Positions 34 through 33,046 of a stretch of DNA of 64,000 bases are shown in pieces. The first letter of the stretch is position 1, and the number at the start of each line of letters is the position of its first letter. Source of the DNA: Thiobacillus sp. SCUT-2 (lineage in GTDB: Bacteria; Pseudomonadota; Gammaproteobacteria; Burkholderiales; Thiobacillaceae); contig NZ_CP141769.1 of assembly GCF_035621355.1 (NCBI RefSeq), forward strand, positions 372,001-436,000. Direction: 5' to 3'. Both the position numbers and the translations under genes were made by a program. A model generated the notes under the pieces. It had not been told where the DNA came from, did not search any database, and worked only from the letters and a program-made list of their open reading frames with translations.

Positions 34-1253
34 GCGAAGGCCTGCTGTTTCTCGCGCACCGCATCCCGTATCCGCCCAACAAGGGCGACAAGATCCGTTC
101 GTTCCACCTCCTGCGCCATCTGAGCACGCGCTACCGCGTTCATCTCGGCGCCTTCGTCGACGATCCCGCCGACTGGCAGTATCGCGAGGCGCTGCGGCCC
201 TACTGTGCGTCGGTCAGGCTGGTGCCGCTGCACCCGCGCCGGGCGCGGCTGGCGAGCCTGGCGGGCCTGCTGACCGGCGAGGCGCTGACCTTGCCTTATT
301 ACCGGAGCGGCGCGCTCAGGCGCTGGGCCGCCGCCCTGGCGGCCGACGGTACCGTGACGCGCGGGCTGGCCTTCTCCTCGGCGATGGCGCAGTTCATGCC
401 GCCCGGGCTTGCGCGCCGGGTGCTCGACATGGTCGATGTCGATTCCGACAAGTGGACGCAATACGCGCCGACCCAGCGCTGGCCGTTGTCGTGGCTGTAT
501 GCGCGCGAAGGCCGCAAGCTGGCGGCGTGGGAGGCGCGGGTGGCCGGGTGTTTCGACGCGACCTTGCTGGTATCGCCCGCCGAGGCGGCCTTGCTGCGGC
601 AGCGCGTGCCGGCGGCATGCGACCGCATCGGCGTGTTCGAGAATGGCGTCGACGCCGAGTATTTTTCGCCGGTCCGGGACTATCCGGATCCCTATGCGGC
701 CGGGCAGATCAGCGTGGTGTTCACCGGCGCGATGGACTACTGGCCGAACGTGGATGCCGTCAGCTGGTTTGCCGAGCGGGTCTTTCCTGCGGTCCGGGAG
801 GCGGTCCCATCGGCCCAGTTCACGATCGTCGGCAGCCGGCCTGCCGAAGACGTGCTTGCGCTGGCGCGCCAGCCCGGCGTCGTGGTGACCGGCAGCGTAC
901 CCGACGTCCGCCCCTGGCTTGCCCATGCGGCCTGCGCCGTGGCGCCGCTGCGCATCGCGCGCGGCGTGCAGAACAAGGTGCTGGAGGCGATGGCGATGGC
1001 CCGTCCCGTAGTCGTCACGCCGCAGGCGGCCGAAGGGATCCATGGTGCGCCGGGGCGCGATTTCGTGGTTGCGGCCGACGCAGCCGGGTTCGCCGCGGAA
1101 GTCGTCGCGGCGCTGCGTCTCCGGGCTTCCGTGCCGCAGGCGCGCGCGCGCGTGCTGGCGCAGTATGACTGGACCCGCAACGTGTCCGCCGTCGATCCGC
1201 TGCTCGAGGCGGCTTCACCGGCCGCCCCCCTTCTGGAGACCTGCCCCGCATGA
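30..1253 (+). CDS. XrtA/PEP-CTERM-associated glycosyltransferase (TIGR03087-like, GT4 fold)
   Basis: Predicted cytoplasmic GT-B glycosyltransferase of 407 residues that would add a sugar during assembly of the exosortase-A-associated exopolysaccharide. The N-terminus carries HRIPYPPNKGDKIRSF, a stretch I associate with the TIGR03087 family. The C-terminal half has the GT4 nucleotide-sugar region, with GAMDYWPNVDAV near residue 235 and VQNKVLEAMAMARPVVVTP near residue 315. It overlaps the upstream frame and the downstream exosortase gene by ATGA junctions, which implies translational coupling. The adjacent exosortase A gene supports the family call. Donor and acceptor sugars cannot be read from the sequence. 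Confidence 0.88.
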   Translation: MSEGLLFLAHRIPYPPNKGDKIRSFHLLRHLSTRYRVHLGAFVDDPADWQYREALRPYCASVRLVPLHPRRARLASLAGLLTGEALTLPYYRSGALRRWAAALAADGTVTRGLAFSSAMAQFMPPGLARRVLDMVDVDSDKWTQYAPTQRWPLSWLYAREGRKLAAWEARVAGCFDATLLVSPAEAALLRQRVPAACDRIGVFENGVDAEYFSPVRDYPDPYAAGQISVVFTGAMDYWPNVDAVSWFAERVFPAVREAVPSAQFTIVGSRPAEDVLALARQPGVVVTGSVPDVRPWLAHAACAVAPLRIARGVQNKVLEAMAMARPVVVTPQAAEGIHGAPGRDFVVAADAAGFAAEVVAALRLRASVPQARARVLAQYDWTRNVSAVDPLLEAASPAAPLLETCPA

Positions 1254-2803
1254 GTGCCTTGCCCGATACCCTGCCTGCAGCCGCGCCGCGCGGCACCTGG
1301 CCCCTGTACGGAGGGGTGACGGCCCTCGTCCTGCTGGCGCTGGCCGCGATCTTCTGGCCGACCTTTCACGCGATGGCGGCCATCTGGGAGCGTTCGGAGA
1401 CCTTCGCCCACGGCTACCTGATCTTCCCGATCAGTCTCTGGCTGATCTGGCGCAAGCGCGAGGCGCTTGCCCGCGTTCGCCCGCGCCCCGACCTGCGCGG
1501 GCTCGTCCTGCTGGCCGGTGCCGGGGCGGCCTGGCTGCTGGCCGACGCTGGCAGCGTCGCCGTCGTCGCGCAATATGCCTTCGTCGCGATGCTGGTCGCC
1601 GCGGTCTGGATCCTGCTCGGGGAAGCGTTTCTGCGGGCAGCCTTCTTTCCGCTGATGTTCCTGTTCTTCGCGGTGCCGATGGGAGAGTTCCTGATCCACC
1701 CCCTGATGAACGTGACCGCCGATTTCACGGTGTCGATGCTGCGGGCGACCGGCATTCCGGTCTACCGCGAAGGCACGTTCTTCAGCATTCCCAGCGGCAA
1801 CTGGTCGGTCGTCGAAGGGTGCTCCGGCCTGCGCTACCTGATCGCCTCGGTGACGCTCGGCGTGCTGTACGCCTATCTGTCCTACCGTTCGTTCAAGCGC
1901 CGCCTGCTGTTCTCGCTCGCCGCGATGGTGGTGCCGGTGTTCGCCAACAGCGGGCGCGCCTACCTGATCGTGATGATCGCCCACCTTTCCGACATGAAGC
2001 TCGCACTCGGTGTCGATCACTACATCTACGGCTGGGTCTTCTTCGGCATTGTCATGCTGCTGTTGTTCTGGGTCGGCAGCTTCTGGCGCGAGGACGACCT
2101 TCCCATGCCGGCGCAGCCGTCTCCGCAGCGGAATGCCGCTCCCGAGCGTGGCACCGGCCGGCCGCTGCTGCCGGTCGCGCTGGCGGCGCTCGTGCTCGCG
2201 GGGCTGTGGCCGGTCTACGCGCACTGGCTGGAGACGCGCCCGCTGCCGAACCTGCCCGCACTCGCGGTCCAGCCCGCGGGCGGCTGGCGCCCTGCGCCGC
2301 CGTTCACGACCTGGGTGCCCCACTGGATCGGCGCCGACCGTCAGCTGCGGCAAACCTTCGCCGAGGGGCGGCAGGCGGTCATGCTCGAGCTCGATTACTA
2401 CGTGACGCAGCGGCAGGACGCCGAGCTCATCAACTCGCAGAATTTCATGATCAGGCAGAAGGACCCTGCGTGGGCGAACGTCGGCGAGGGCCTCGTCACG
2501 GTGCGGATCGGCGGCAGGACGCGACAGGTCCGGCAGGCGAAGATGCTCGGCAGCGATGGTCAGCGGATACTCGTGTGGCAGTGGAACCTGATCGACCGGA
2601 ACACGGTCGTCAACGACTATTACGCCAAGCTGGTGCTGGCGCTCGACCGCGTGCGGCTGGCCCGCGACGATGGTCTGTCGGTGCTGATCGCCACGCCGTA
2701 TCCGGAAACGGGCATCCAGGGCGCGGCGGCGACGCTGGCCCGGTTTGCGGCGGACATGGAACCGGAGATCGCGCGTGCGCTCGATCGGGTCGACGGGCCG
2801 TGA
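1250..2803 (+). CDS. xrtA: Exosortase A fused to an EpsI domain
   Basis: Inner-membrane cysteine transpeptidase-like enzyme that in this family recognises C-terminal PEP-CTERM sorting signals. The 517 residues have about eight hydrophobic segments up to roughly residue 285. The expected catalytic triad is present: Cys191 in VEGCSGLRYL, Arg236 in NSGRAYLIV and His257 in DHYIYGWVFF. After a linker and one more membrane segment (about 300-325), residues 340-515 form an EpsI-type periplasmic domain, a module that is a separate gene in some other XrtA loci. The start overlaps the previous gene by four bases. No PEP-CTERM substrate was found in this window, so targets must be encoded elsewhere. Confidence 0.95.
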   Translation: MSALPDTLPAAAPRGTWPLYGGVTALVLLALAAIFWPTFHAMAAIWERSETFAHGYLIFPISLWLIWRKREALARVRPRPDLRGLVLLAGAGAAWLLADAGSVAVVAQYAFVAMLVAAVWILLGEAFLRAAFFPLMFLFFAVPMGEFLIHPLMNVTADFTVSMLRATGIPVYREGTFFSIPSGNWSVVEGCSGLRYLIASVTLGVLYAYLSYRSFKRRLLFSLAAMVVPVFANSGRAYLIVMIAHLSDMKLALGVDHYIYGWVFFGIVMLLLFWVGSFWREDDLPMPAQPSPQRNAAPERGTGRPLLPVALAALVLAGLWPVYAHWLETRPLPNLPALAVQPAGGWRPAPPFTTWVPHWIGADRQLRQTFAEGRQAVMLELDYYVTQRQDAELINSQNFMIRQKDPAWANVGEGLVTVRIGGRTRQVRQAKMLGSDGQRILVWQWNLIDRNTVVNDYYAKLVLALDRVRLARDDGLSVLIATPYPETGIQGAAATLARFAADMEPEIARALDRVDGP

Positions 2804-3998: not shown

Positions 3999-5918
3999 AT
4001 GTGCGGCATTACAGGCATATTCGACATCGGCGGCTCGAACGCGATTTCGCGCGAGCTGCTGCATCGGATGAACGAAGCGCAGTTCCATCGCGGCCCCGAC
4101 GAGGGCGGGCTGCATCTCGAGCCGGGGCTCGGACTGGGGCACCGGCGACTGTCGATCATCGATCTGGCCAGCGGCCAGCAGCCGCTCTTCAACGAGGACG
4201 GCTCGGTCGTCGTCGTGTTCAACGGCGAGATCTACAATTTCCAGCAGCTGGTTCCCGAGCTCGAGGCGCTGGGCCACGTCTTCCGCACCCATTCCGACAC
4301 CGAAGTCATCGTCCATGCCTGGGAGGCCTGGGGCGAGACCTGCGTCCGGCGCTTCCGCGGCATGTTCGCCTTCGCGCTGTGGGACCGGAATCGCGAGACG
4401 CTGTTCGTCGTGCGCGACCGCTTCGGCGTCAAGCCCCTCTACTATGCCTTCCTGGACACCGGCGAATTCATCTTCGGTTCCGAGCTGAAGGCCCTGCTCG
4501 TGCATCCGAGCCTCGCACGCGACATCGACCCGCTGGCGGTCGAGGAATATTTCGCGTACGGCTATGTCCCCGAGCCGCGCACCATCTTCAAGCGCGTGCA
4601 GAAGCTGCCGCCGGGCTTCACCCTCACCCTCAGGCGCGGAGCGGCGCGCGCCTTGCCGAAGCAATACTGGGACGTGCCGTTCGAGCCGGTCCCCGTGAAG
4701 GACGAGGCGGCGGCGATGGACGAGCTGGTCGAGCGCCTGAAGGAGTCGATCCGCCTGCGCATGATCGCCGACGTGCCGCTCGGCGCCTTTCTTTCCGGCG
4801 GCGTCGATTCGAGCGCGGTGGTCGCGATGATGGCGACGCAGTCGCCCACGCCGGTGAACACCTGCTCGATCGGCTTCGACGATCCCGCCTTCGACGAGGT
4901 GGCGTTCGCGCAGCAGGTCGCCGACCGCTACCGCACGCGGCACCATGTGGAGACCGTCGCCGCCGACGACTTCAGCCTGGTCGGCAAGCTCGCGCAGGTC
5001 TACGACGAGCCCTACGCCGATTCGTCGGCGCTGCCGACCTACCGGGTCTGCGAGCTGGCGCGCAAGCACGTGAAGGTGGCGCTGTCGGGCGACGGCGGCG
5101 ACGAACATTTCGCCGGCTACCGGCGCTATCGCTGGTTCCGCTACGAGGAGCGGATGCGCTCGGTAATGCCGCTGATGCTGCGCCGCCCGCTGTTCGGCGC
5201 GCTCGGCCGGCTGTACCCGAAGGCCGACTGGGCGCCGCGGGTATTCCGCGCCAAGACGACCTTCGAGGCGCTCGCGCGCGACACCGTCGAAGGCTATTTC
5301 CACGGCGTCTCGCTGCTGTCCGACGCGCAGCGCAGGCAGCTGTTCTCGCCCGCGTTCAAGCGCGAGCTGCAAGGCTACGAAGCAGTCGAGGTCCTGCGTC
5401 GCCACGCGGCCGTGGCGCCGACCGACGATCCGCTGTCGCTGGTGCAGTATCTCGACATGAAGACCTATCTGGTCGGCGACATCCTCACCAAGGTCGACCG
5501 CGCCAGCATGGCGCATGCGCTCGAGGTGCGCGAGCCCCTGCTCGACCACGAGCTGATGGGCTGGGTGTCGGGCCTGCCGACCGATCTCAAGTTGCGCGGG
5601 ACCGAGGGCAAGTATCTGCTGAAGAAGGCGATGGAGCCCTATCTGCCGCACGACGTGCTGTACCGCCGGAAGATGGGCTTTTCGGTGCCGCTGGCGGCCT
5701 GGTTCCGCGGGCCGCTCGCGGCGACCATCCGCAGTGTCGTGCTCGGGGAGCGGCTGGCGTCGACCGGCCTCTTCAACCGGGACTACCTGCGCGAGGTGGT
5801 CGACGCCCACCAGTCCGGTCGCCGCGACTGTTCGGTGATCCTGTGGACGGTCCTGATGTTCGATGCCTTCCTCGGCCAGGTGCTGGGGATGGACGAGGCA
5901 CAACGCGAGGCGGCATGA
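3999..5918 (+). CDS. XrtA-associated asparagine synthase-like amidotransferase (TIGR03108-like)
   Basis: Glutamine-dependent amidotransferase of 639 residues, built like asparagine synthase B. The chain begins Met-Cys-Gly-Ile, so the N-terminal nucleophile Cys2 is intact. FNGEIYN lies near residue 74 and RGMFAFALWD near 120. The synthetase half has the pyrophosphate loop SGGVDSS near residue 266 and SGDGGDEHFAGY near 365. In exosortase A loci this protein is thought to amidate a sugar or glycan intermediate rather than aspartate, but the substrate is unproven. The stop overlaps the next start by ATGA. Compare the second, cysteine-less homologue at 14553-16379. Confidence 0.92.
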   Translation: MCGITGIFDIGGSNAISRELLHRMNEAQFHRGPDEGGLHLEPGLGLGHRRLSIIDLASGQQPLFNEDGSVVVVFNGEIYNFQQLVPELEALGHVFRTHSDTEVIVHAWEAWGETCVRRFRGMFAFALWDRNRETLFVVRDRFGVKPLYYAFLDTGEFIFGSELKALLVHPSLARDIDPLAVEEYFAYGYVPEPRTIFKRVQKLPPGFTLTLRRGAARALPKQYWDVPFEPVPVKDEAAAMDELVERLKESIRLRMIADVPLGAFLSGGVDSSAVVAMMATQSPTPVNTCSIGFDDPAFDEVAFAQQVADRYRTRHHVETVAADDFSLVGKLAQVYDEPYADSSALPTYRVCELARKHVKVALSGDGGDEHFAGYRRYRWFRYEERMRSVMPLMLRRPLFGALGRLYPKADWAPRVFRAKTTFEALARDTVEGYFHGVSLLSDAQRRQLFSPAFKRELQGYEAVEVLRRHAAVAPTDDPLSLVQYLDMKTYLVGDILTKVDRASMAHALEVREPLLDHELMGWVSGLPTDLKLRGTEGKYLLKKAMEPYLPHDVLYRRKMGFSVPLAAWFRGPLAATIRSVVLGERLASTGLFNRDYLREVVDAHQSGRRDCSVILWTVLMFDAFLGQVLGMDEAQREAA

Positions 5919-14537: not shown

Positions 14538-14552
14538 GGCGTGATGCGCGCA

Positions 14553-16379
14553 TCAATGTCCGTTCGCCTGCAGCCATCGTTCCAGCATCATGGTGACCCA
14601 GACCATCACGCCGTAATAGCTTGCATGGGGGCCGCGCAGCATGCCGGACATGTGATCCAGGTACGCCGGGCGCATCCATCCCCGTGCCTTGAAGTCCGAC
14701 AGGCTGTCTCCGACGAGTTCGCCGAGCGGCGCGTGCTGCGTGCACCACACGCCGAACGGCAAGCCGAAGCCGTGCTTGGCCTTGCTGATGATCTTTTCCG
14801 GCAAAACGTCGCGCAGCGCTTCCTTGAAGAACCAGCGCAGGGTCTGGCCGCGCACCTTGTAGTCCACCGGCAGATGGTTCGCGAAAGCGACGAGCCGGTC
14901 GTCGAGGAGGGGATAGCGCACCTCGATTCCTGCCGCTTCGGTCATCGTGCCAACCTTGCGGAGATCGTTGTCCGCAAGCGTGAACTTCAGGTCGACGTGC
15001 ATCATGCGGTTGATGTAGTGGTCCGACGCAGTGCGCGCATACACGTCGACGAGCGCCGCATCGGCTGCAGAGGGATCGACGGCATGGATGAAATCCTGCG
15101 CAAGGATTTCGTCGAGCGGCGTGCGGTGGAGAAAGTTGTAGCTTTCGAGGCGCAGCGGCAGCCCCATGTTGGCTTGACGGACGTAGCTCTTCAGCTTGGC
15201 AAGCGGGAAGCGGCCGGACAGCAGGGGGACGTGGGCGATCGGCTCGATCACGCCGCGCCGGAAGGCGGCGGGCAGGCGGAAGTAGTTCTCGAACAGCCGC
15301 TGCTTCGCATAGCGGGCGTTGCCGCCGAATATCTCGTCGCCGCCGTCGCCCGCGAGCATGCGCTCGAACCCCGCGTCGCGCGCGGTACGGGCGCAGAAAT
15401 AGGTCGGCACCGCAGAGTCGTTGCCGAACGGCTCGTCGTACTCGCGCGCGATGACGGGAATTGCCGTGACGATGTCGGCGGGCTTCAGATAGTACTCATG
15501 GCGCCGGCTGCCGTAGCGCTCGGCGGCGCAGCGCGCGTATTCCATTTCGTCGAAGCCGTCGGCGTCGAAGCCGATGGAGAAGGTGTCGATCGGGGCGCCG
15601 CGCGCAGCGGTAAGCGTGCCGACCACGGTGGAACTGTCGGTGCCGCCGGACAGGAACGCCGCGGTCGCCGGGGCATCGGTGTCGCGCACGGCCTGGTCGA
15701 GCAGGTCACGGAAATGGGTACGATGCGCGGCAAAGTCGGCGTCGACCGGCGTGTAGTCGGCATGCCAGTAGAAGCGGGCATCCAGGTGGCCGTTCTTCAG
15801 GGTCACGATCTGCCCCGGCAGCAGCTTGTGCACGCCCTGATAGAGACTGCGCGGCGCCGGGATGGTGTGAAAGTAGAGGTAGTCGTAGATCGCCTGGGGG
15901 TCGATCGTGCGCCCGATGCCGGGATGGGCCGCCACGTTCTGCACGCTGCTGCCGAAGACGAGATGGCCGCCGCGATGCGCGTAGCAGAGGCGTTCGGCAC
16001 CGACGCGATCGAGCGCGAGGCAGGCCCGCTTCTTGAGCGGCTCGAGCACGGCGAAGGCGAAGTTGCCCTGCATCAGCAGCGGCAGCTGTTCGCCATGGCG
16101 CACCCAGCCGTGCGCGACGGCGTTGGCCGGGCCCTGCTCGCGGGCGATGAATGCGAGTTCGTCGTCGAGGAAGCGCGGCCGGCCGGCCAGCGCCGCGGCG
16201 AGGCCATTCTCGACGTGGATGTCCGCCTTGCCGAAGCGCGAGCATGCCGCAACACCCAGCAGCTGGCTGCTGTGTTCGTGCAGCAGCCCCTCCGGCGACA
16301 GGCAGGCCGCGCGCCCCATGTGCCGAATCAGGTCGTGATGTGCGCCGTGGTCGCCCAACCAGCCGAAAATGCCATCCAT
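14553..16379 (-). CDS. Asparagine synthase-like protein lacking the glutaminase cysteine
   Basis: Predicted 608-residue protein with the two-domain asparagine synthase architecture. ATG 16379 gives Met-Asp-Gly-Ile-Phe-Gly, so the N-terminal nucleophile Cys2 is replaced by Asp. The frame is open further upstream but has no Met-Cys alternative and no family similarity there. The synthetase half looks intact: SGGTDSS near residue 252 and LAGDGGDEIFGG near 340. Glutaminase activity should be lost, so it would need free ammonia or perform another ATP-dependent condensation, as beta-lactam-synthetase-like relatives do. It stands alone on the minus strand, divergent from a sulfotransferase. Substrate unknown. 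Confidence 0.85.
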   Translation of the reverse strand: MDGIFGWLGDHGAHHDLIRHMGRAACLSPEGLLHEHSSQLLGVAACSRFGKADIHVENGLAAALAGRPRFLDDELAFIAREQGPANAVAHGWVRHGEQLPLLMQGNFAFAVLEPLKKRACLALDRVGAERLCYAHRGGHLVFGSSVQNVAAHPGIGRTIDPQAIYDYLYFHTIPAPRSLYQGVHKLLPGQIVTLKNGHLDARFYWHADYTPVDADFAAHRTHFRDLLDQAVRDTDAPATAAFLSGGTDSSTVVGTLTAARGAPIDTFSIGFDADGFDEMEYARCAAERYGSRRHEYYLKPADIVTAIPVIAREYDEPFGNDSAVPTYFCARTARDAGFERMLAGDGGDEIFGGNARYAKQRLFENYFRLPAAFRRGVIEPIAHVPLLSGRFPLAKLKSYVRQANMGLPLRLESYNFLHRTPLDEILAQDFIHAVDPSAADAALVDVYARTASDHYINRMMHVDLKFTLADNDLRKVGTMTEAAGIEVRYPLLDDRLVAFANHLPVDYKVRGQTLRWFFKEALRDVLPEKIISKAKHGFGLPFGVWCTQHAPLGELVGDSLSDFKARGWMRPAYLDHMSGMLRGPHASYYGVMVWVTMMLERWLQANGH

Positions 16380-16503
16380 GGTGTGTCGTGTCCGCGTGAT
16401 ACGGGATAATGTCCGCCAAATATAAACGAGCCGGTGGATTGGCACGAATTCCGTCGCCCGGCGGCGGGCGCCCGGAGCTCCGTCCGATAACGACATAAAG
16501 CGC

Positions 16504-17430
16504 ATGAGTTTGAGCGAATTCTCTGACAAGGTGGCGAAAACGCTGGCGTTCCATGCGCGCCGCGTGCAGCGTGCCGCGCGCGGCCTGCGGTGGGACCTGC
16601 AGCGGATTCCGGCAAGGCGGCCGGTCATCGTCGTCGGCTGCTCGCGCGCCGGCACCACCCTGGTCTACAAGACGCTCTCGGAGTCGCGCGAGATCGGCAG
16701 CTTGCAGCGCGAAACCCACGACTACTGGACCGGCCTGCACCCGCTGTCCGCCAAGGGCTGGGACACCCACGCGCTCGAAGCGGCGGATGCCAGCCCTGCG
16801 GACCGCGACACCGTCAGCCGCTATTTCTACAGCTGGACCGGGTGCCAGCGCTGGGTCGACAAGAACAATCAGAACGGCCTGTGCGTGCCCTATCTGCGCG
16901 CGCTCTTCCCCGACGCCCTCTTCGTCTACGTCAAGCGCAGCCCGGGGGACAACCTCAACTCGCTGATCGAGGGCTGGCGCAAGCCCGACGAGTTCGCGAC
17001 CTGGTCCGCCGCGTTGCCCGAGACGGTGGCGGTCGAGAACGGGCAACTGACGCAGTGGTGTTTCTTTCTCGCCGAAGGCTGGCGCAAGTACACAACCGCG
17101 CCGGTCGAGGCGGTGGCCGCGTTCCAGTACGAAGCCATCAACCGTGCGATCCTCGACGCGCGGGCCGGCGTGCCGTCCGGGCAGTGGATCGAGGTGTTCT
17201 ACGAGGATTTCCTGCGCGACCCGGTCACGACCTTCCGACGGGTGTTCGAGGGATGCGGCCTGGCCTTCGATGCGCGCCTGGAGGCCCATTGTGCCCAGGT
17301 CCTCGGCATGCCCTACAACGCCTTTTCCGAGATCCGGCTCGACAAGTGGAAGGATGGCCGCAACCGCGAAAAGATCGAGCGCGTGCTGCCGCAGGTGGCC
17401 GATGTCGCTGCGCGGATGGGCTATCGATGA
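16504..17430 (+). CDS. Sulfotransferase family protein
   Basis: Predicted 308-residue sulfotransferase. The phosphosulfate loop reads VIVVGCSRAGTTLVYKTL near residue 41, and a second motif, LFVYVKRSPGDNLNSLIEG, lies near residue 140. It opens the second + strand block and is divergent from the asparagine-synthase-like gene; the 124 bases between them should hold both promoters, though I could not assign boxes with confidence. It is coupled by ATGA to the deacetylase-like gene. Acceptor unknown; context points to a surface glycan. Confidence 0.82.
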   Translation: MSLSEFSDKVAKTLAFHARRVQRAARGLRWDLQRIPARRPVIVVGCSRAGTTLVYKTLSESREIGSLQRETHDYWTGLHPLSAKGWDTHALEAADASPADRDTVSRYFYSWTGCQRWVDKNNQNGLCVPYLRALFPDALFVYVKRSPGDNLNSLIEGWRKPDEFATWSAALPETVAVENGQLTQWCFFLAEGWRKYTTAPVEAVAAFQYEAINRAILDARAGVPSGQWIEVFYEDFLRDPVTTFRRVFEGCGLAFDARLEAHCAQVLGMPYNAFSEIRLDKWKDGRNREKIERVLPQVADVAARMGYR

Positions 17431-23905: not shown

Positions 23906-26900
23906 TCAGGGCGATCGTGCGGGGGGCTGCCCGGGTGCGTCCGCGGCGGTTTCCCCGCCGCGCGTCTCCGGCCGGCCGGAGACGGCTCCGATCAAGCCGT
24001 CGAGCGTCGACTGCAGGGCAGCGGCAAGCTCGGCGCGCTCGGCGGCGAGGTCGCGTCGACACTCGGGGTCGGTTTCGAGGTCGAACAGCCGGTAGGACGG
24101 CCCCTCTTCCAGCGGCTGGTAGACCAGCTTCCAACGCCCGCGCCGGATCATGCGATCCTTGGCCGCAAGAATGGTATCGCAGTACTGGGCCTTGATTGCC
24201 AGCGTGCCGCTTTCCCGGTCGGGGATCTCCATCAGTTCGAGCAGGTCCGGGTAACGCAGGTGCGTATCGGGCAGCCCGGGGATGTTCGCGATCCAGATGC
24301 CAGTTTCGTTGAAGGCATGGAGATCCGGGCAGGCGCCCCCTTCGCTGAGGCAGCCGGCGAGCGAAACGCCCTCGATGCCGGGAGGGACAGCCTGTCCGGC
24401 CAGTTCCAGCAGCGTCGGCGCGAGGTCGATCGAGCGGACCACGTTGTCGATCCTGCCGCGCGGCGCCCGGCGCGGATCGCGGACGATCAGCGGAATCCGC
24501 GGGCTGGCCTCGCCCACGGCCGAGTTGCCCTGGCCCCAGGTGTCGTGCTCGAAGAATTCCATTCCATGGTCCGAGTAGACGACCACGAGGGTGTCGCCTG
24601 CGAGTCCGCACGCGTCGAGATGCGCGAGCATTCTTCCGACCTCGTCGTCGAATTCGGCCACGCAGCCGTCGTAGAGATCGACGATCTGGCCGAGGTCGAA
24701 TTCCTCCTGCGGCGCGCCCTGGCGGCGGATGATCTCGAACGGGTCGGTGAGCCGGGCCATCCCGAACTTCGATTCGCCTGCGTAGGCCGGGTCGGCGAAA
24801 CGCGTGTACCACGGCCATTCCGATGCGAACGGTGGATGGGTGGTCGAGTAGAACACGTTGAGGAGGAACGGCCCGGTGCCGGATGCGAGGCGCGACACCA
24901 GGCGGCGCGCGCGGCGTCCCAGCGGCTGCGTCAGCGGCACGCCGCCCAGGTAATACAGTTCGGGAAGCAGCAGGCGTCCCAGCCTGTTATGCGTGAACAG
25001 CGAGACGAAGAGCCGTAGATCCTTGGGGCCCTGGCGGATGAGATATTTCAGGTTCCACTGGTCTTCAGGCAGGTCGGAATAATCGAAGCCGAACGAGTAC
25101 TTGCCCATGTCGGCGCCGCACCAGTCCGAAATCACGGCAGTGCGGTACCCGGCTTTCCCGAGCAGTCCCGGGAGCGTCTCGACCTTGAGGCGGGTGTCGT
25201 CGTCGCTCGCGAAGTTGTCGCGGATGCCATGGGTATGCGGCCAGGTCCCCGTCAGGAGGGAAATCAGGCTCGGCGCGGTGCGCGCACACGGGACGTAGCA
25301 GTTGGCGAAGAGTGCGCCGCTTGCGGCCAGCCGGTCGATGTTCGGCGTCAGGGCGCGGCGATATCCCAAGGCGCCGAGCCGGTCGGCACGCAGCGTATCG
25401 GAGCCGATCATCAGGATATTCGGCGGGGCGCCGGCGGCGCGCACGGCGCGTTTGCGCGGCGGCCGCGCTTCGGGCTGCCAGGCGGCCCAGAGGATGGCGC
25501 CGGCAAAGAACAGCGTGGCGGCCCACAAGGCGACGAGGGCGTCCAGGCGGTTTTCCTTCGCCAGTTGCCAGGATGCGCCCACGAAGAGCAATCCGATCAT
25601 CGCTGTCGCAGCCGCCTGAACACGCGCGAGGCGTGCCGGCGTCAGCGTGTGCCAGAGGCCGTACAGGCGGCTCATGCGGTAGTGCATCGATGCCGCCAGC
25701 AGGCCGGGATTGAAGCGCAGCTTGCGAACGAATTGAAGCGCGAAGCCGCCGGCGATGCCGAACAGCGATGCGACGACGGCCAGCCAGGGTGACCACTCGG
25801 CCCGCACCGCGGTGGCGAGCATGAAATAGACCAGCACGCCGGCGCCCGCGCTGAAGAGCATCAGCGCGAACGCCCAGGCGGTCAGTCGCGCCAGCGCGAG
25901 CAGCGTGTAGCGCCGGTAATGCCGGAGTATTTCCTCGCGGATGCGGGGGCCGGTATGCGAAAAGTCCAGCAGCGATTTGACGAGCAGCGCGCCGGTGCCG
26001 ACCCCGGCGACGCCCAGCGCGGGGAACAGGCCGGCCCAGCGGGCCCCGCCGCTGGCGAACCACGCGATCAGGCCGCACACGGCCGTGAACAGCGCCAGCG
26101 ACTCGGTGAGCACGAGGCCGCGGTCGGGCGGCAGATCCAGACCCTTGCCGCGATGGCCCGATTCCCGGCGGCCCCGGATCTCGCCGAGCGCCGCCGCCGT
26201 GCGCACCCAGTAGAAGCGCCGCTTCGCCCACGACAGGCTGAACACGCCATGCGCGCCGTACTCGGCGAGCTTGCGCCACATGTAAAGCGGAACCGTCCCG
26301 CGGCCGCGCAGCCGCGCCGCGGAGCGGCTGCGCTGGAAGCTCTTCTTCAGCAGGTAGCCGAGCCGCAGCCGTTCGTTGTCGACGAAGTGGTACTGCACGA
26401 CGTGCGGCGCGTACTGGCAGCGTTCCCCGCGGGCCAGCGCCCGCAGGACGTAGTCGCTGTCTTCGCCGCCGCCGAGGTCGTGGCCGCGCGGGCCGAGCTC
26501 GGTGGAAAACGGCCCCGTCGATTCGAACACGCGGCGGCGCAGGACCAGGTTGCCGCCGCCGGGAATCGGGCCCGTCTCGGCCGTGATCGGCCGCGGCGAA
26601 TCGCCCTGGTCGTAGCGCGGAACCGGCAACGGGTAGATGCGGTACGCGCCATCGTCATGGACCCAGGCGGGTTCGCTGCCGTCCCAGTCCGGCAGGATCT
26701 TGCCGCAATAGATGCCCGCATCGGGCCATCTGTCCGCGGCCTGATCGATCGCCGTCAGGTAGGCCGGATCCACGCGGTGATCGTCGTCCATCAGCGCAAG
26801 CAGGTCGCTGTCGATGGTCGGGATGGCGGCGTTGAGCGCATGGGACTTGCCCGGCGTGGGCACTTCGATGAGGCGCAGCGGCAGCCAGTCGCGCGCGGCG

Positions 26901-27073
26901 CACTCGGCCTGGTAGGCCTGCATGTCCGCGACCGTGTCGTCGCTGCAGGCGTTCGCCGCCACGACGATCTGCACGGGCATCCGCGGACGCGCCGCGCGAT
27001 TGAGCGAGGCCAGGGTCTGGCCGAGCAGGGCGGCCCGGTTGTGCGTGCAGATCAGGACAGTGAGCGTGCTCAC
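23906..27073 (-). CDS. Fusion protein: GT2 glycosyltransferase, membrane region, sulfatase-fold domain with Thr nucleophile
   Basis: Very long, 1,055 residues. Residues 1-270 form a GT2 domain (VLICTHNRAALLGQTLASLN, LMDDDHRVD near 93, GGEDSDYVLRA near 200). About 315-540 contain several membrane helices. About 548-1,030 match the alkaline-phosphatase/sulfatase superfamily, with metal ligands in NILMIGSDTLRADRLG (near 548) and VYSDHGMEFFEHD (near 830). At the usual C-x-P-S-R sulfatase site the sequence is TAPSLISLLTG with Thr599, so formylglycine cannot form there. A phosphoryl or phosphoethanolamine-type transferase or phosphodiesterase fits better than a sulfatase. GTG start overlaps the upstream sulfotransferase stop. 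Confidence 0.85.
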   Translation of the reverse strand: MSTLTVLICTHNRAALLGQTLASLNRAARPRMPVQIVVAANACSDDTVADMQAYQAECAARDWLPLRLIEVPTPGKSHALNAAIPTIDSDLLALMDDDHRVDPAYLTAIDQAADRWPDAGIYCGKILPDWDGSEPAWVHDDGAYRIYPLPVPRYDQGDSPRPITAETGPIPGGGNLVLRRRVFESTGPFSTELGPRGHDLGGGEDSDYVLRALARGERCQYAPHVVQYHFVDNERLRLGYLLKKSFQRSRSAARLRGRGTVPLYMWRKLAEYGAHGVFSLSWAKRRFYWVRTAAALGEIRGRRESGHRGKGLDLPPDRGLVLTESLALFTAVCGLIAWFASGGARWAGLFPALGVAGVGTGALLVKSLLDFSHTGPRIREEILRHYRRYTLLALARLTAWAFALMLFSAGAGVLVYFMLATAVRAEWSPWLAVVASLFGIAGGFALQFVRKLRFNPGLLAASMHYRMSRLYGLWHTLTPARLARVQAAATAMIGLLFVGASWQLAKENRLDALVALWAATLFFAGAILWAAWQPEARPPRKRAVRAAGAPPNILMIGSDTLRADRLGALGYRRALTPNIDRLAASGALFANCYVPCARTAPSLISLLTGTWPHTHGIRDNFASDDDTRLKVETLPGLLGKAGYRTAVISDWCGADMGKYSFGFDYSDLPEDQWNLKYLIRQGPKDLRLFVSLFTHNRLGRLLLPELYYLGGVPLTQPLGRRARRLVSRLASGTGPFLLNVFYSTTHPPFASEWPWYTRFADPAYAGESKFGMARLTDPFEIIRRQGAPQEEFDLGQIVDLYDGCVAEFDDEVGRMLAHLDACGLAGDTLVVVYSDHGMEFFEHDTWGQGNSAVGEASPRIPLIVRDPRRAPRGRIDNVVRSIDLAPTLLELAGQAVPPGIEGVSLAGCLSEGGACPDLHAFNETGIWIANIPGLPDTHLRYPDLLELMEIPDRESGTLAIKAQYCDTILAAKDRMIRRGRWKLVYQPLEEGPSYRLFDLETDPECRRDLAAERAELAAALQSTLDGLIGAVSGRPETRGGETAADAPGQPPARSP

Positions 27074-28038
27074 GCGAGAATCCCCTTGGCGCGCCTCCAG
27101 AACCCCGTGAGCAAACGGTTGTGAAGCCGGTACGCCGCCTTCACCGCAAGCGCGGGCGGGGTGCCCGCGGTCGTCAATTCATAGCCGAGCTCGCGCAGCG
27201 TGTCGCCCGCCACACTCTCGAACGCCCTGACTTGCGCGGCGGACATCCTGCTGCGCCATTTCCCGGCGTTGTCCGCCTTCAGCGGCGCGTGGACCAGCGG
27301 CGTCTTGCCGGGATCGTCGACCGAGGCGACCGCAAACAGCTCGGGCGAGTAGGTTTCGCCGAGAAAGTCGCAGAGCTGACGCATCGTGTGCTCGGGGGTC
27401 GCAAGCAGGTCCTCGTAGCGCATCTCCATGTACTGGGCGGACGGCAGTTCCGCGCCGAGTGCGCGCCCTTTCTCGACGTAGCTCGCCCAGTATTCCGCGG
27501 CGAAGTAGGCGTTGTAGACGTAGAAGTCGTGCTGCCTGCCGAACAGCGACAGCGCGACGTCGCGGCCGTCGCGGATCAGATGGACGATCTGCGCGTCGGG
27601 AAACCACTCGATCAGCTTCGGGATGTGCATCACGTAATAAGGCGTCTTGTCGCCCCAGCGGGACTTGCCCTCGCCGCGTGCATTCCTTTCGAACACGCCG
27701 GAGATGATCGCGGGCATCGTGTGGCGGCCCTCGGCGTGCAGTTCGCCGGCGAGCCTGTCGACGTCGAATTTCAGGCCGAACAGATCGGTCTCGAGGAAAT
27801 TGCGGCTCTGCGCGAGCATGGCCTGCAGGACCGCGCGGATGCTTTCGAGCCGCGACAGGTCGCCAAAGCGATGCTGGTTCCGGTAGAGCGGGATGAAGAA
27901 ATGCGATTCCCCGGTCGGCAGCGAAATGCGCGGGTGGTTGCGCAGCCGGTACTGCAGCATCGTGGTGCCGGATCGCGGCGCGCCGACGATGAAGATCGGC
28001 CCTTGCCGCGGCGGTGTGGGCGGGCGTGGCGAGGTCAC
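27070..28038 (-). CDS. Sulfotransferase family protein
   Basis: Predicted 322-residue PAPS-dependent sulfotransferase with textbook 5'-phosphosulfate loop FIVGAPRSGTTMLQYRLRN near residue 16. The 3'-phosphate-binding segment is IVHLIRDGRDVALSLFGR near residue 150. MEMRYEDLLATPEHTMRQL near 207 is typical of the Sulfotransfer_3 group. The GTG start overlaps the stop of the deacetylase gene upstream, and the stop overlaps the GT2/sulfatase-fold fusion, so all three are probably translated together. This is the third sulfotransferase of the region. Confidence 0.9.
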   Translation of the reverse strand: MTSPRPPTPPRQGPIFIVGAPRSGTTMLQYRLRNHPRISLPTGESHFFIPLYRNQHRFGDLSRLESIRAVLQAMLAQSRNFLETDLFGLKFDVDRLAGELHAEGRHTMPAIISGVFERNARGEGKSRWGDKTPYYVMHIPKLIEWFPDAQIVHLIRDGRDVALSLFGRQHDFYVYNAYFAAEYWASYVEKGRALGAELPSAQYMEMRYEDLLATPEHTMRQLCDFLGETYSPELFAVASVDDPGKTPLVHAPLKADNAGKWRSRMSAAQVRAFESVAGDTLRELGYELTTAGTPPALAVKAAYRLHNRLLTGFWRRAKGILA

Positions 28039-28871
28039 GTCGAGCTTCCGGTCAGGCGAACGTACTTGAACAGCGCGTGCGGCATGAGCCCATAGTGCGG
28101 GAAAAGCGCGCGGACGCGCCAGTGCTGGCGCTGCACCCAGCGGCTCCTGCGCACGGCGCGACGCCAGACCTCCGCGTCGTGCCGCGCGGCCAGCTGGCCC
28201 AGGGTGTTCACGCGTACGCCGGGCTGGCCGCGGAGCCAGTGCAGCAGATCCGAGAAGTCCTCCAGCGTGAGCGGTGCGTCGGCATGTCCGGATTCCTTGA
28301 AGTCGTAGTGGTGCATCACGGCGATGACGGCGAGACCACCTGCCGGGCGCCGGCGCGCGTCGGCCAGTGCGGGCCGCAGCTCGGTGAGCTGGCAGGTGCG
28401 CGGCAACTGCGCGAGCGGTCCGGATTCGACCCAGCCATGCTCGCCGCCGGCCGAGAGGTAGCGAAAGCCCTGCCGCTCCAGCACGGCGGCAGTGGTGGCA
28501 TCGAAGGTGTTGAACGGGGGCACGAAGCCGGAGATGGCGCAGCCGAATGCAGCTTCGAGCACCGCCTGCCCGGTGGAGATCTTCTCGGCCTGCGCCGGTT
28601 CATCGAGCCCGCAGAACTCCGAAGGCGGCATGTCGCCCGGGCGGCACGGCACATGGTCGAAGCCGTGCTGGGCGATTTCCACCCGCCCGAGCTGCTGTGC
28701 CTCGACGAGATGCGGCGCGCATGCGGCGGTCAGGCGGCGCTGTCCGGCGCACGGGATGACCGCGAAGGTCGCGCAGACATCGTGCGCCGCCAGGACCTGC
28801 AGGATGGCGCGCTCGAGCGCATGATCGCTGACCGCGGAGGGATCGTCGAAACGGATGGCGACGTCGGTCAT
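28035..28871 (-). CDS. Polysaccharide-deacetylase-like protein
   Basis: Predicted 278-residue NodB-fold protein. ATG 28871 gives MTDVAIRFDDPSAVSD, whose Asp-Asp pair corresponds to deacetylase motif 1. QHGFDHVPC near residue 77 supplies the H-x3-H metal pair, and FVPPFNTFD near 122 matches the RxPxG-type third motif loosely. A late histidine motif, IAVMHHYDF, lies near residue 182. It probably removes acyl groups from glycan or a glycolipid intermediate; no signal peptide is seen, so a cytoplasmic site is possible. Four bases separate it from the upstream GT2 gene. Confidence 0.75.
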   Translation of the reverse strand: MTDVAIRFDDPSAVSDHALERAILQVLAAHDVCATFAVIPCAGQRRLTAACAPHLVEAQQLGRVEIAQHGFDHVPCRPGDMPPSEFCGLDEPAQAEKISTGQAVLEAAFGCAISGFVPPFNTFDATTAAVLERQGFRYLSAGGEHGWVESGPLAQLPRTCQLTELRPALADARRRPAGGLAVIAVMHHYDFKESGHADAPLTLEDFSDLLHWLRGQPGVRVNTLGQLAARHDAEVWRRAVRRSRWVQRQHWRVRALFPHYGLMPHALFKYVRLTGSST

Positions 28872-28875
28872 GCGC

Positions 28876-29802
28876 TCAACCCTCCTGCCGGCTGCGATAG
28901 CCCTGCAGGCTGCCGAGCGCATGCGCCGCGTTCATCGCCTGGCGGACGAGACCTGGCTTGCCGCTGAGCGCCAGCCTTGCGGTGCGGCCGACGTGCCTGA
29001 GGAACTGCGCCAGCATGAAGGGGGGCACGCCGAGGGGCGCATGCCGGTAGCGCGGCAGCTCGTAGCGGCCGTGACGCACGCCGGCGCGGTAATGGAGCTT
29101 GATGAAATAGCGGCGATCGAGCCGCCAGGGCTCGACGGCATGCAGGACGGCCATGTCGGGGCGATAGCGGATGCGTGCCTGGCGGGCGAGCAGGGCGTTC
29201 AGCATCGCGGCGTCTTCGCCGCCGCCGATGTCCTTGCCCGCGCGCGTGTAGCGGGGATCGAAGCGCAGCGACGGATCGTCGCGAAACAGGCGCATGTCGT
29301 ACGCGACGTTGGCGGTCCACACGGGTGTCCCTGCGTCCTCGATCCAGAAGCGCTCGGGGCCATGGTCGACGGCGGCGAGAAAGCCGAGCAGGTTGTCCTC
29401 CAGCCATGCAGGGCGTGTCGTCGTCCGGAAGTCCATTTCCACCCGCCCGCCCGCACATTCGGCGCCCTCGTTCAGGATCGCATCGGCGGCGGCGTCGAGG
29501 AGACCCGGGCAGGGCAGTTCGTCGTCGTCGATGAACACCAGGATGTCGCTGCCGAGCGCTTCGTCGATTCCGCGATTGCGCGCGGCGACGATACCCTGCA
29601 CCGGCTCGTTGACCCAGCGCAGGCGGATTCCCGGCATGGCCGCCAGGCGCGCCAGCGTATCCGGCGTCGCGTCCGTGCTGTTGTTGTTGATCACCAGGAT
29701 CTCGAACGGAATCGGGCAGCTTTGCTCGCGCATGGCGCCCACCAGCGCATCCAGCCGGTCCGCCCGGTTGTAAGTGCAGAAAGCGAAGGTCAGCAGGGAC
29801 AT
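28876..29802 (-). CDS. Glycosyltransferase family 2 protein
   Basis: Predicted 308-residue GT-A enzyme with FAFCTYNRADRLDALVGAM at the N-terminus, VINNNSTDATPDTLARL near residue 38 and FIDDDELP near residue 90 as the metal-binding motif. GGGEDAAMLNALL near residue 193 is the later acidic signature. The C-terminus has basic and amphipathic segments but no certain membrane helix. It lies between another GT2 gene and a deacetylase in the minus-strand glycan block. Sugar donor unknown. Confidence 0.87.
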   Translation of the reverse strand: MSLLTFAFCTYNRADRLDALVGAMREQSCPIPFEILVINNNSTDATPDTLARLAAMPGIRLRWVNEPVQGIVAARNRGIDEALGSDILVFIDDDELPCPGLLDAAADAILNEGAECAGGRVEMDFRTTTRPAWLEDNLLGFLAAVDHGPERFWIEDAGTPVWTANVAYDMRLFRDDPSLRFDPRYTRAGKDIGGGEDAAMLNALLARQARIRYRPDMAVLHAVEPWRLDRRYFIKLHYRAGVRHGRYELPRYRHAPLGVPPFMLAQFLRHVGRTARLALSGKPGLVRQAMNAAHALGSLQGYRSRQEG

Positions 29803-30771: not shown

Positions 30772-31583
30772 GGACGGGACGCGAAAGCCTGGGCAAAGCG
30801 GACGAACTCGTACCGAAGCAACTTGCGAAAGCTGGTCTGGTTGTCGCCAAAACTCAGATTGCGCACGAACATGCTCATCGTGTCGGTATTGAAGACGGTC
30901 AGGCGGCGCAGGCGGTACGGGTCGGCGTCGCGCAAGGCCCACCCCGAGCACGTGGTGCACGCCGTGGCATAGCCCGCTTGTGCCGCGGCCGCGGCGCAGC
31001 GCGCGTCCCAGGCGCCGTACGGATAGGCGAAGCTCGTCACCGCCGTGCCGAGCGCGTCTTCCAGGGCCGCCTTGGAATCGGCCAGTTCCTGCCTCAGGCT
31101 CGGGTCGTCCACGCTCGTCAGGCGGACGTGGTTCACCGTGTGGGAGCCGATCTCCATGCCGCCCGCCTGCATGTCGCGCAGTTCGGCTGCGTTCAGCATG
31201 CGCCCGGCCGGCCGGCCGGAATCCCGCCAGTGCGGCGTGCGGCCCAGCGCGCCGGAGACGACGAACCAGCTCGCGCGCATTCCCCGCCGGTGCAGGGCTT
31301 CGCACGCGGCGAGGTTGTCGAGATAGCCGTCGTCGAAAGTGATGACGGCCGTGCGTCCGCGCCAGGCCGTGGCCGGGGCGGCGACCAGCTCCGCCACGGT
31401 CGGTGTCGCATAGCCCTCGCCGGCGAGAAAATCGAGCTGATCGCAGAAGCGCTGCATGGACACGGCCCACGGCCATTCGGGGGCAAGCTTTCCCGGCGTG
31501 ATGGCGTGATACATGAGGATGACCGGCCCGTGCTGCCCGGCCTGGCGGTGAAGCGCGCGCGAGAGCGGATCGATCCAGGTCAT
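30768..31583 (-). CDS. Polysaccharide deacetylase family protein
   Basis: Predicted 271-residue NodB-fold deacetylase with well-preserved motifs: VILMYHAITPG near residue 21, motif 1 VITFDDGYLDN near residue 79 and motif 2 EIGSHTVNHVRL near residue 144. SFAYPYGAWDARC near 187 corresponds to motif 3. Of the three deacetylase-fold proteins here this is the most canonical, so metal-dependent N- or O-deacetylation of a glycan is likely. ATG 31583 overlaps the stop of the flippase gene, and its own stop overlaps the GT2 gene, so the three are probably co-translated. Confidence 0.88.
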   Translation of the reverse strand: MTWIDPLSRALHRQAGQHGPVILMYHAITPGKLAPEWPWAVSMQRFCDQLDFLAGEGYATPTVAELVAAPATAWRGRTAVITFDDGYLDNLAACEALHRRGMRASWFVVSGALGRTPHWRDSGRPAGRMLNAAELRDMQAGGMEIGSHTVNHVRLTSVDDPSLRQELADSKAALEDALGTAVTSFAYPYGAWDARCAAAAAQAGYATACTTCSGWALRDADPYRLRRLTVFNTDTMSMFVRNLSFGDNQTSFRKLLRYEFVRFAQAFASRP

Positions 31584-33046
31584 GCGAGGGCCTTGGTGAG
31601 CTTGAGCCGGGCCTTCCAGCGTGCCGTTTCGGTCGCCAGGGCCGGAATCGGCAGATAGAGGAAGCAGAGGAGGTATGCCAAGCCGCCGGTGGCGGCCATG
31701 GTCAGCACATAGAGCGCATCGACGGCCCGCACCGGCGGCGGAACGACGCGGTCGACGAGCCAGAGGACGGCGAGCAGGATGGCGTTGAGCAGCGCCGCCG
31801 GCACGAAGGCACGCGCCAGGTCGCGCCAGCGGGCGCGCAGCGACCGCTTGGCGAGCCAGTACATGTGAAGCGTGATATACAGCTGCGCGAGGACCATGCC
31901 GCTGGCCACGCCGGTCATGCCGTATGGCAGGCCGGCGAGGATCGCCCCTGCGGCAACGGCGATCATGATGAGCTGCGCGACGAGTTCCTTGTCCAGCCAG
32001 CTGCGCGCCGCCAGGACGGCACCGGCCAGGTTCTCGATCATCATCAGCGGCGCGGCGAGGCTGAGAATCATCAGCGGCGCGGCCGAATCCGCCCAGCGCT
32101 GGCCGAACAGCGTGACGACCAGGGGTTTGGCGAGCCAGAGGAAGCCGACGTAGAACGGCAGGGCGTAGACGGCCACCAGCGTGAGGCTGCGAAAGAACAG
32201 ATACCGGCACTTGTCGAGATTGTCCTGCTCCTTCGCCAGCGCCCGGAACACCACGTCGTAAACCGAACCGGTGATGAAGCCGTGCGGGCGCGCCGCGAGG
32301 CTTTCGGCCTTGTTGTAGAGACCCACGCCCGCGGCGCCCAGACTGCGCGACAGAATGAAGGTGGGCAACTGCCGGCGTATATAGCAGACGATATTGTTGC
32401 TGGACGCCAGGACGCCGTACCGCATCAGTTCCCCGGCACGCGCAAAGTCGAAACAGAGGCCGGGACGCCAGCGCGCATACCAGGAGAACTGGAGCGCACC
32501 GGCGATCGACCCGAACAGCCCGGCGAGGATCAGGCTCCAGGGGCCGTGGCCCAGATACGCCAGGCTCAGCGCGATGCCGTTGTAGAACACCAGGTTGACC
32601 AGCTGGACCGCCGTCTTTGCCTTGAAGCGCATTTCCCGGTGCAACATGTTGCTCGGTACGTTGAAGAACGGGCGCACGAGAAAGGAAAGCGCTGCCACGC
32701 GCAGGAGGTCGGCATACAGCGGATTGCCGTACCAGCGCCCGAACCAGGGTGCGAGGGCGAAGAAGATGCCGACGATCGTCATGCCGATCAGCAATTGCAG
32801 CGTGAACAGCAGGTCGTAATCGCGCTTGCTGGCTTCCCTTGCCCGGACGATCGCCTGGCCCATCCCCCCCCCGGCAACGAATCCGGCCAGGCTGGTGAAG
32901 ATCAGGATGGTCGCGACCATGCCGAATTCGGCCGGCAACAGGAGGCGGGCCAGGATCAGTCCTAGCGCGAAGTTGATCAGCTGGCTGCCCGTGTTTCCGA
33001 TGAATACCCACTTGGCGCCATGGCGGATGGAATTGCCCAGGCTCAT
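31580..33046 (-). CDS. Wzx/WzxC-type polysaccharide flippase
   Basis: Integral membrane protein of 488 residues with about twelve to fourteen hydrophobic helices, beginning SLGNSIRHGAKWVFIGNTGS. The MOP-superfamily region ILARLLLPAEFGMVATIL at about 31-48 and LSRSLGAAGVGLYNKAESLA near residue 233 resemble WzxC/TuaB-type transporters, which move lipid-linked sugar repeats across the inner membrane. It is the only flippase in the window and so the best candidate for exporting the repeat units built by the surrounding glycosyltransferases. A 55-base gap separates it from the methyltransferase gene upstream. Confidence 0.88.
   Translation of the reverse strand: MSLGNSIRHGAKWVFIGNTGSQLINFALGLILARLLLPAEFGMVATILIFTSLAGFVAGGGMGQAIVRAREASKRDYDLLFTLQLLIGMTIVGIFFALAPWFGRWYGNPLYADLLRVAALSFLVRPFFNVPSNMLHREMRFKAKTAVQLVNLVFYNGIALSLAYLGHGPWSLILAGLFGSIAGALQFSWYARWRPGLCFDFARAGELMRYGVLASSNNIVCYIRRQLPTFILSRSLGAAGVGLYNKAESLAARPHGFITGSVYDVVFRALAKEQDNLDKCRYLFFRSLTLVAVYALPFYVGFLWLAKPLVVTLFGQRWADSAAPLMILSLAAPLMMIENLAGAVLAARSWLDKELVAQLIMIAVAAGAILAGLPYGMTGVASGMVLAQLYITLHMYWLAKRSLRARWRDLARAFVPAALLNAILLAVLWLVDRVVPPPVRAVDALYVLTMAATGGLAYLLCFLYLPIPALATETARWKARLKLTKALA

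Follow-up and report, generated by a model that had tools for sequence, protein, structure and literature searches.

A glycosyltransferase fused to a threonine-type phosphatase-fold domain in exosortase A loci, with both active sites probably on the cytoplasmic side

What does a sulfatase-like domain do when it is joined to a glycosyltransferase, and on which side of the membrane does it work? The question is raised by a stretch of 64,000 nucleotides from Thiobacillus sp. SCUT-2 (the window; contig NZ_CP141769.1, positions 372,001 to 436,000), part of a 3.01 Mb single-contig genome. Within an exopolysaccharide locus of the exosortase A (XrtA) type, one gene encodes a family 2 glycosyltransferase (GT2) domain, a membrane region and a PF00884 (Sulfatase) domain. 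The initial annotation, made from the sequence, had suggested that this protein could couple sugar addition inside the cell to decoration outside. Sequence or statistics support the fusion, its intact motifs, its co-occurrence with XrtA, the exchange of its GT2 domain and the conclusion that it is not a sulfatase; the side of the membrane probably differs from that first reading. Window coordinates of the gene and its parts are as follows.

23906..27073, minus strand: whole bifunctional gene, 1,055 residues, GTG start (open reading frame, Pfam, codon-position GC)
26174..27073, minus strand: GT2 glycosyltransferase domain, residues 1-300 (GT2 profile and acidic motifs)
25481..26122, minus strand: membrane region, residues 318-531, six predicted helices (AlphaFold2 model and hydropathy)
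23978..25423, minus strand: alkaline-phosphatase-superfamily (PF00884) domain, residues 551-1032, probably cytoplasmic (Pfam, model, Foldseek, topology prediction)

The open reading frame (ORF) is real and intact by motif, with gene-like codon-position GC (0.87 at third positions versus 0.51 at second). Pfam matched PF13641 at residues 4-230 (E 6.6e-16) as well as PF00535, and the GT2 motifs D96-D97-D98, E204-D205, H229 and R248 were invariant across 50 aligned members, so that both the profile and the acidic motifs of a GT2 enzyme are present. The best Pfam match of the protein was PF00884 at residues 551-893 (E 2.3e-43), the only match to this family in its genome. An AlphaFold2 model (mean predicted local distance difference test score, pLDDT, 84.7; predicted template modelling score 0.76) showed GT2-type strands and helices, long helices between residues 318 and 531, and a C-terminal phosphatase-fold domain. 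Foldseek matched this last domain to alkaline-phosphatase-superfamily enzymes, led by 4uph (E 1.9e-19, TM-score 0.64 on the target), 7stt and 4upl and including 2vqr and choline sulfatases. Pfam, AlphaFold2 and Foldseek thus agree with the three-part chain that had been proposed.

The residues at the presumed active site were then compared between the membrane-phosphatase-fold module of this family and 29 outside relatives, which are loci from a phylum-wide draw of genomes. The comparison covered 131 modules (100 distinct sequences, 74 at 85% identity); three loci with modules under 600 residues (L056, L095, L101) were left out. Of L111-L131 only L112, L113, L117-L119 and L126 were counted, the others being duplicates of longer stretches or the window itself.

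25277..25279, minus strand: Thr599, nucleophile position (131/131 modules; Cys in 28/29 outside relatives)
25397..25399, minus strand: Asp559, metal ligand position (131/131 modules)
24566..24571, minus strand: Asp835-His836, metal ligand positions (131/131 modules)
24836..24838, minus strand: His746, leaving-group His position (131/131 modules; His in 29/29 outside relatives)
25124..25126, minus strand: Asp650, in place of the sulfate-binding Lys of sulfatases (Asp in 131/131 modules; Lys in 26/29 outside relatives)
24530..24532, minus strand: Gln848, in place of the second catalytic Lys of sulfatases (Gln in 131/131 modules; Lys in 28/29 outside relatives)

Residues R598, W846, G847, G849 and N850 were likewise identical in all 131 modules, and position 603, an Arg in 28 of the 29 outside relatives, is Leu in the module. 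In the model, helix 599-608 begins with Thr599, Asp559 comes after strand 552-558, and Asp835-His836 come after strand 828-834. A nucleophile at a helix start and ligands at strand ends are usual in the alkaline phosphatase superfamily, and by secondary structure and fold match the domain belongs there. The same placing was seen in a model of L103, a relative in which the GT2 part and the module are separate genes (split). The replacement of Cys/Ser by Thr599 with the Asp and Asp-His ligands kept, which had been noticed from the window sequence, therefore extends to every module counted, and by secondary structure Thr599 sits at the nucleophile place of the superfamily, which speaks against a position far from the ligands.

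These substitutions bear on the sulfatase question. The formylglycine signature [CS]-x-P-x-R reads T-A-P-S-L in the fusion protein, with Thr in 131/131 modules, and the second signature G-K-x-H reads S-D-W-C, with Asp650 in 131/131. In S1 sulfatases the Arg stabilises formylglycine, and Thr is thought not to be convertible to it (PMC5066984, excerpt); in choline sulfatase the aligned residues are the nucleophile, a Lys at the sulfate and a His-Lys general acid pair (PMC5870055, excerpt). With C-x-P-S-R changed to T-x-P-S-L, and the sulfate-site Lys residues changed to Asp650 and Gln848, formylglycine is impossible, and the fusion protein is almost certainly not a formylglycine sulfatase, as the initial annotation had suggested. 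The nearest relatives of the module nonetheless look like formylglycine sulfatases, and one outside relative, L193, also has Thr at the nucleophile position. Thr is in any case ordinary in PF00884, occurring in 30 of the 59 Pfam seed sequences (PMC5066984, excerpt). In our reading, the module family would have left the sulfatase/phosphonate-hydrolase branch and taken on a Thr like that of MCR-1.

We next consider the side of the membrane. The window's model contains helices at residues 318-340, 344-374, 380-422, 429-454, 479-506 and 510-531, and averaged hydropathy gave six peaks, in agreement with these six membrane-length helices. Across the 50 members, the mean number of Lys and Arg residues in successive loops was 16.4 (before helix 1), 0.8, 3.8, 0.2, 6.0, 1.0 and 3.9 (after helix 6), so that the positive loops are every second one, the GT2 side included. 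A simple recipe of hydropathy and the positive-inside rule, applied to representatives, assigned the phosphatase-fold domain to the cytoplasm in 49 of 51 fused proteins (six helices in 45), and in all four with a GT2 domain of type C (one of the types A, B and C considered below), which have eight helices because this GT2 carries extra ones. The same recipe called EptA-type controls periplasmic in 12 of 15 and was wrong for three, most margins being small. Since the helix number is even and the Lys/Arg-rich loops lie on the GT2 side, the phosphatase-fold domain is placed in the cytoplasm. We regard this placement as likely, and both active sites of the fused form are probably on the cytoplasmic side. 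A periplasmic phosphatase-fold domain, and with it the idea of sugar addition inside coupled to decoration outside, is thus unsupported by the topology prediction.

Split representatives gave a mixed picture. Of 17, five helices were detected in 12, six in 4 and four in 1, and the model of L103 has five membrane helices, without helix 1. The recipe assigned ten to the cytoplasm and seven to the periplasm. One seven-member clade (L136, L138, L139, L141, L143, L146 and L147; support 91), in which the bias is weak, accounts for six of the periplasmic calls; in the remaining one, L145, just four helices were detected. The members of that clade are stand-alone modules whose charge bias is weak or reversed, and their catalytic domain may have turned outward, a topology change within one family. 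Fused-type GT2 genes lie near 9 of the 10 other split modules, versus 2 of the 7 called periplasmic (the upstream side of L146 being cut by a contig end). L137, which is split yet nested among fused forms in the tree, has six helices and the N-terminus MKIR, and might be a fused protein that lost its GT2.

The fusion is not peculiar to the window, and uniqueness was rejected on its recurrence in relatives. Among 100 searched genomes, 51 match the fusion protein (the window's own included), with 46 of the 55 other genomes of the genus among them; for one of these, G066, the match is confined to the phosphatase-fold part. In a collection of species genomes, 131 stretches encode a relative, of which the best 80 were kept, and sources of relatives include Thiobacillus, Nitrotoga, Thauera, Aromatoleum and Sulfuriferula. 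The 110 loci fetched represent 83 different ORFs, some genes having been fetched twice. GT2, membrane and phosphatase-fold parts occur in one ORF in 100 of these (some cut short), a different GT2 subfamily stands in front in five (L072, L074, L077, L083, L085), L103 alone is split, and in four the ORF begins at a contig end (L068, L094, L097, L098). Close homologues are therefore fused, rather than two separate genes joined only here. One Thiobacillus copy from a metagenome-assembled genome (L065:849-4003) has its GT2 part in two frames through a frame shift, the remainder being open. In a class-wide draw, in which up to three candidates per genome were scored, the module was found in 21 of 369 genomes, several times as a stand-alone gene of about 700-800 residues. 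In the phylum-wide draw of 398 genomes (up to two candidates each), the window's genome alone gave a whole-module match, and the other 52 matched in the phosphatase-fold part only. A GT2 gene lies directly upstream of the split module in L103, L134, L135, L140 and L142, and in L143 a single small ORF separates the two.

The distribution of the module follows that of exosortase A. XrtA (TIGR03109) exceeded its cut-off in 73 of the 369 class genomes, namely in 20 of 21 module-positive versus 53 of 348 module-negative genomes (Fisher p 1.4e-14, an optimistic value because the genomes are related). The sole module-positive genome without XrtA above the cut-off, G151, carries an ORF resembling the XrtA-type amidotransferase (L140:1-891, 430 bits). 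Recurrence in genomes with XrtA, a point that the initial annotation had asked to be checked, is supported.

A quick tree of 72 modules (74 less L097 and L126, whose ORFs are cut by contig ends) needs 4 changes between fused and split states, and 15 when GT2 types A, B, C and split are taken together. The groups were named after the identities had been seen, and type B was delimited by eye as those GT2 domains that are about 42-48% identical to the one in the window. A single type-B clade was rejected by 550 log-likelihood units (approximately unbiased test, p-AU 2e-95), a result that L089, L093 and L099, possibly just divergent type A, may inflate; a single type-C clade cost 62 units (p-AU 0.019). 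The sister modules L016 (type A) and L029 (type B), joined with support 99, were compared in blocks of 40 codons. Their identity is 80-100% over the phosphatase-fold part, save for 57% in its final block, against 52-87% over the membrane part and 25-62% over the GT2 part, with the step near residue 320 of the window's protein. No comparable step was seen in the same-type pairs L016/L008 and L030/L059. The firm cases of exchange are L016/L029 and L020/L030. Judged from these comparisons, the GT2 domain has been repeatedly exchanged on a constant membrane-phosphatase-fold module.

We propose, tentatively, that the whole chain is a membrane enzyme of XrtA-type exopolysaccharide assembly that acts at the inner leaflet, its two active sites both facing the cytoplasm. 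The GT2 domain would add one sugar to a growing lipid-linked repeat unit, and the phosphatase-fold domain would have access to that unit on the same face of the membrane. With a single divalent metal held by Asp559, Asp835 and His836, Thr599 would form a covalent phospho-type intermediate, and a phospho group, such as a phosphodiester headgroup, would be moved onto the repeat unit or removed from it before a Wzx flippase exports the unit. Lineages would change the product by swapping the GT2 domain while keeping the module. With both heads predicted to be cytoplasmic and the module in loci of the Wzx/ligase type, action on the lipid-linked unit before flipping is the simplest reading. A Thr on one metal favours a phospho-enzyme, with which transfer and hydrolysis are both compatible; we infer the lipid-linked substrate, the phospho chemistry, the metal, and transfer rather than hydrolysis.

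Several observations weigh against this proposal. To our knowledge, the membrane-bound Thr-type enzymes of the superfamily all act outside the cytoplasm, and the catalytic domain of LtaS is likewise outside. MCR-1, a Thr-type member, has its domain outside the cytoplasm and acts there (PMC5216409, excerpt). Both the closest solved structures and the outside relatives belong to hydrolytic enzymes of the sulfatase/phosphonate branch rather than to transferases. Seven of the 17 split relatives are called periplasmic; the Lys/Arg-rich loops are also the longer ones, the per-residue bias in fused proteins being only about twofold, and loop sums favour the cytoplasm in 51/51 fused and 4/4 type-C but only 13/17 split representatives. 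Pairwise alignment with 4upl sets the lost Lys at Asn850, also invariant, and not at Gln848, and the stretch 842-850 that bears Gln848 has pLDDT below 50.

The same evidence can be read in other ways. The domain might be a cytoplasmic hydrolase working next to the glycosyltransferase: a phosphodiesterase or phosphatase for trimming or proof-reading a nucleotide or lipid-linked substrate, or for clearing away the nucleotide product to drive sugar transfer. In fold and sequence it comes closest to phosphonate monoester hydrolases, choline sulfatases and further hydrolases of the S1 type, the predicted side agrees, and a constant module beside exchangeable GT2 domains would suit a general function. 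The Lys residues of mono-metal hydrolases are gone, however (Asp650, Gln848), and no second metal site could be assigned, leaving this a doubtful explanation with some chance of being right. As first suggested, the domain could instead be a transferase of phosphoryl or phosphoethanolamine groups that lies in the periplasm and is linked across the membrane to a glycosyltransferase in the cytoplasm. Such an enzyme would share Thr and Asp-His with MCR-1 (Thr285, Asp465, His466; PMC5216409, excerpt) and would suit the outward calls among split relatives. It is made unlikely by the even helix number and Lys/Arg bias of the fused form, by Asp rather than Glu as first ligand, and by the lack of a match to PF08019, the EptA N-terminal domain, in the protein or its genome. 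Phosphoryl or phosphoethanolamine transfer as such, apart from its side, may still be the activity.

With the Cys, the Arg and the two Lys residues that its nearest relatives carry all lost, the domain could also be catalytically dead, or a purely structural scaffold for the glycosyltransferase. Metal ligands and Thr are nevertheless invariant in 131/131 modules, and the module is also found without a fused GT2, so we consider a scaffold improbable. A true sulfatase working with the two sulfotransferases of the locus would fit PF00884 being the best Pfam match and a sulfotransferase gene overlapping the fusion gene; a sulfotransferase match lies within 9 kb in 27 of 37 well-flanked loci (60-bit threshold; L140 was scored as lacking one, yet a PF13469 match adjoins its module). 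It was rejected on the active-site residues, which lack both the Cys/Ser needed for formylglycine and the Arg/Lys of a sulfate site, and its chance is very small. Special coupling to sulfotransferases was also rejected, as PF13469 occurs somewhere in at least 62 of the 73 genomes searched (72 XrtA-positive and G151).

The inner-leaflet enzyme proposed here draws on parts that are already known, namely GT2, PF00884 with Thr, and XrtA loci. Phosphonate monoester hydrolases and choline sulfatases (2vqr, 4uph, 6fny) have the same fold, the Asp ... Asp-His metal site and the leaving-group His; the fusion protein differs in having Thr for the formylglycine Cys, Leu for Arg and Asp and Gln for two Lys, and in being membrane-anchored and fused to GT2. 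In 20 of the 29 outside relatives a Met stands no more than about 20 residues ahead of the ligand Asp (counted by eye, true starts being uncertain), so these 20 probably lack a signal peptide. EptA/MCR phosphoethanolamine transferases, with which LtaS and GacH may be grouped, share the Thr nucleophile and Asp-His ligands, by residue only, and have membrane helices before the catalytic domain, whereas the fusion protein has Asp559 (131/131) where MCR-1 has Glu246 (PMC5216409, excerpt), a probably cytoplasmic domain, and a GT2 in front. EptA/MCR enzymes were not named among the matches listed, the best 50 of two Foldseek lists and the best 60 of two sequence lists. GT2 enzymes of exopolysaccharide loci, such as HpsE-like proteins, share the profile and motifs; here the domain is fused to the module and exchanged between lineages. 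The match to HpsE-like NF038302 scored 79.5 bits, under its cut-off of 300.

The window shares XrtA, an amidotransferase, an O-ligase and glycosyltransferases with XrtA/PEP-CTERM loci, and also carries an MBOAT protein; the fusion protein itself falls under the cut-off of every NCBIfam model (11 weaker matches).

1250..2803, plus strand: exosortase A (XrtA), TIGR03109, 360 bits versus a cut-off of 208
3999..5918, plus strand: XrtA/PEP-CTERM system amidotransferase, TIGR03108
10781..12103, plus strand: putative O-ligase of the exosortase A system, TIGR03097; Wzy_C
16504-17430, plus strand: second PF13469 sulfotransferase of the locus
27070..28038, minus strand: sulfotransferase gene, PF13469, upstream of the fusion gene
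31580..33046, minus strand: Wzx-type flippase gene of the locus

The fusion gene and the upstream sulfotransferase gene overlap by 4 bases and are probably in one operon. A polysaccharide-deacetylase-like protein (28035-28922, minus strand; PF01522, DUF2334) adjoins this sulfotransferase, its likeness to the XrtA deacetylase TIGR03006 being weak (19 bits). An ORF of 622 residues (14541-16409, plus strand) has no Pfam match at E 0.001; of 37 loci, 12 have a match to this ORF close to the module. Since a longer ORF on the minus strand overlaps it, the frame may not be genuine. Elsewhere in the genome, a second exosortase-like match (G000:C1:2022486-2023271) scored 146.6 bits, under the XrtA cut-off.

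In the one open library searched we did not find the joined, probably cytoplasmic, glycosyltransferase-swapping form, which leaves its absence from the literature unproven; in the main text of PMC1569441 the terms 'sulfatase' and 'sulfotransferase' do not occur (term search). An easy mistake is corrected here, in that a PF00884 match reads as 'sulfatase' and hints at a periplasmic place. It is possible, though we put it forward with reserve, that these proteins represent a class of inner-leaflet 'decorases', cytoplasmic membrane-bound Thr-type phosphotransferases that modify lipid-linked units before flipping and evolve by swaps of the fused glycosyltransferase, one helix gained at fusion keeping both heads on the same side. 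If so, the coupling of a cytoplasmic Thr-type enzyme to a glycosyltransferase would mean that the exopolysaccharide receives non-sugar decoration before it is exported, and the natural swaps in sister genes would offer a ready system for testing how domain exchange alters the structure of the repeat unit.

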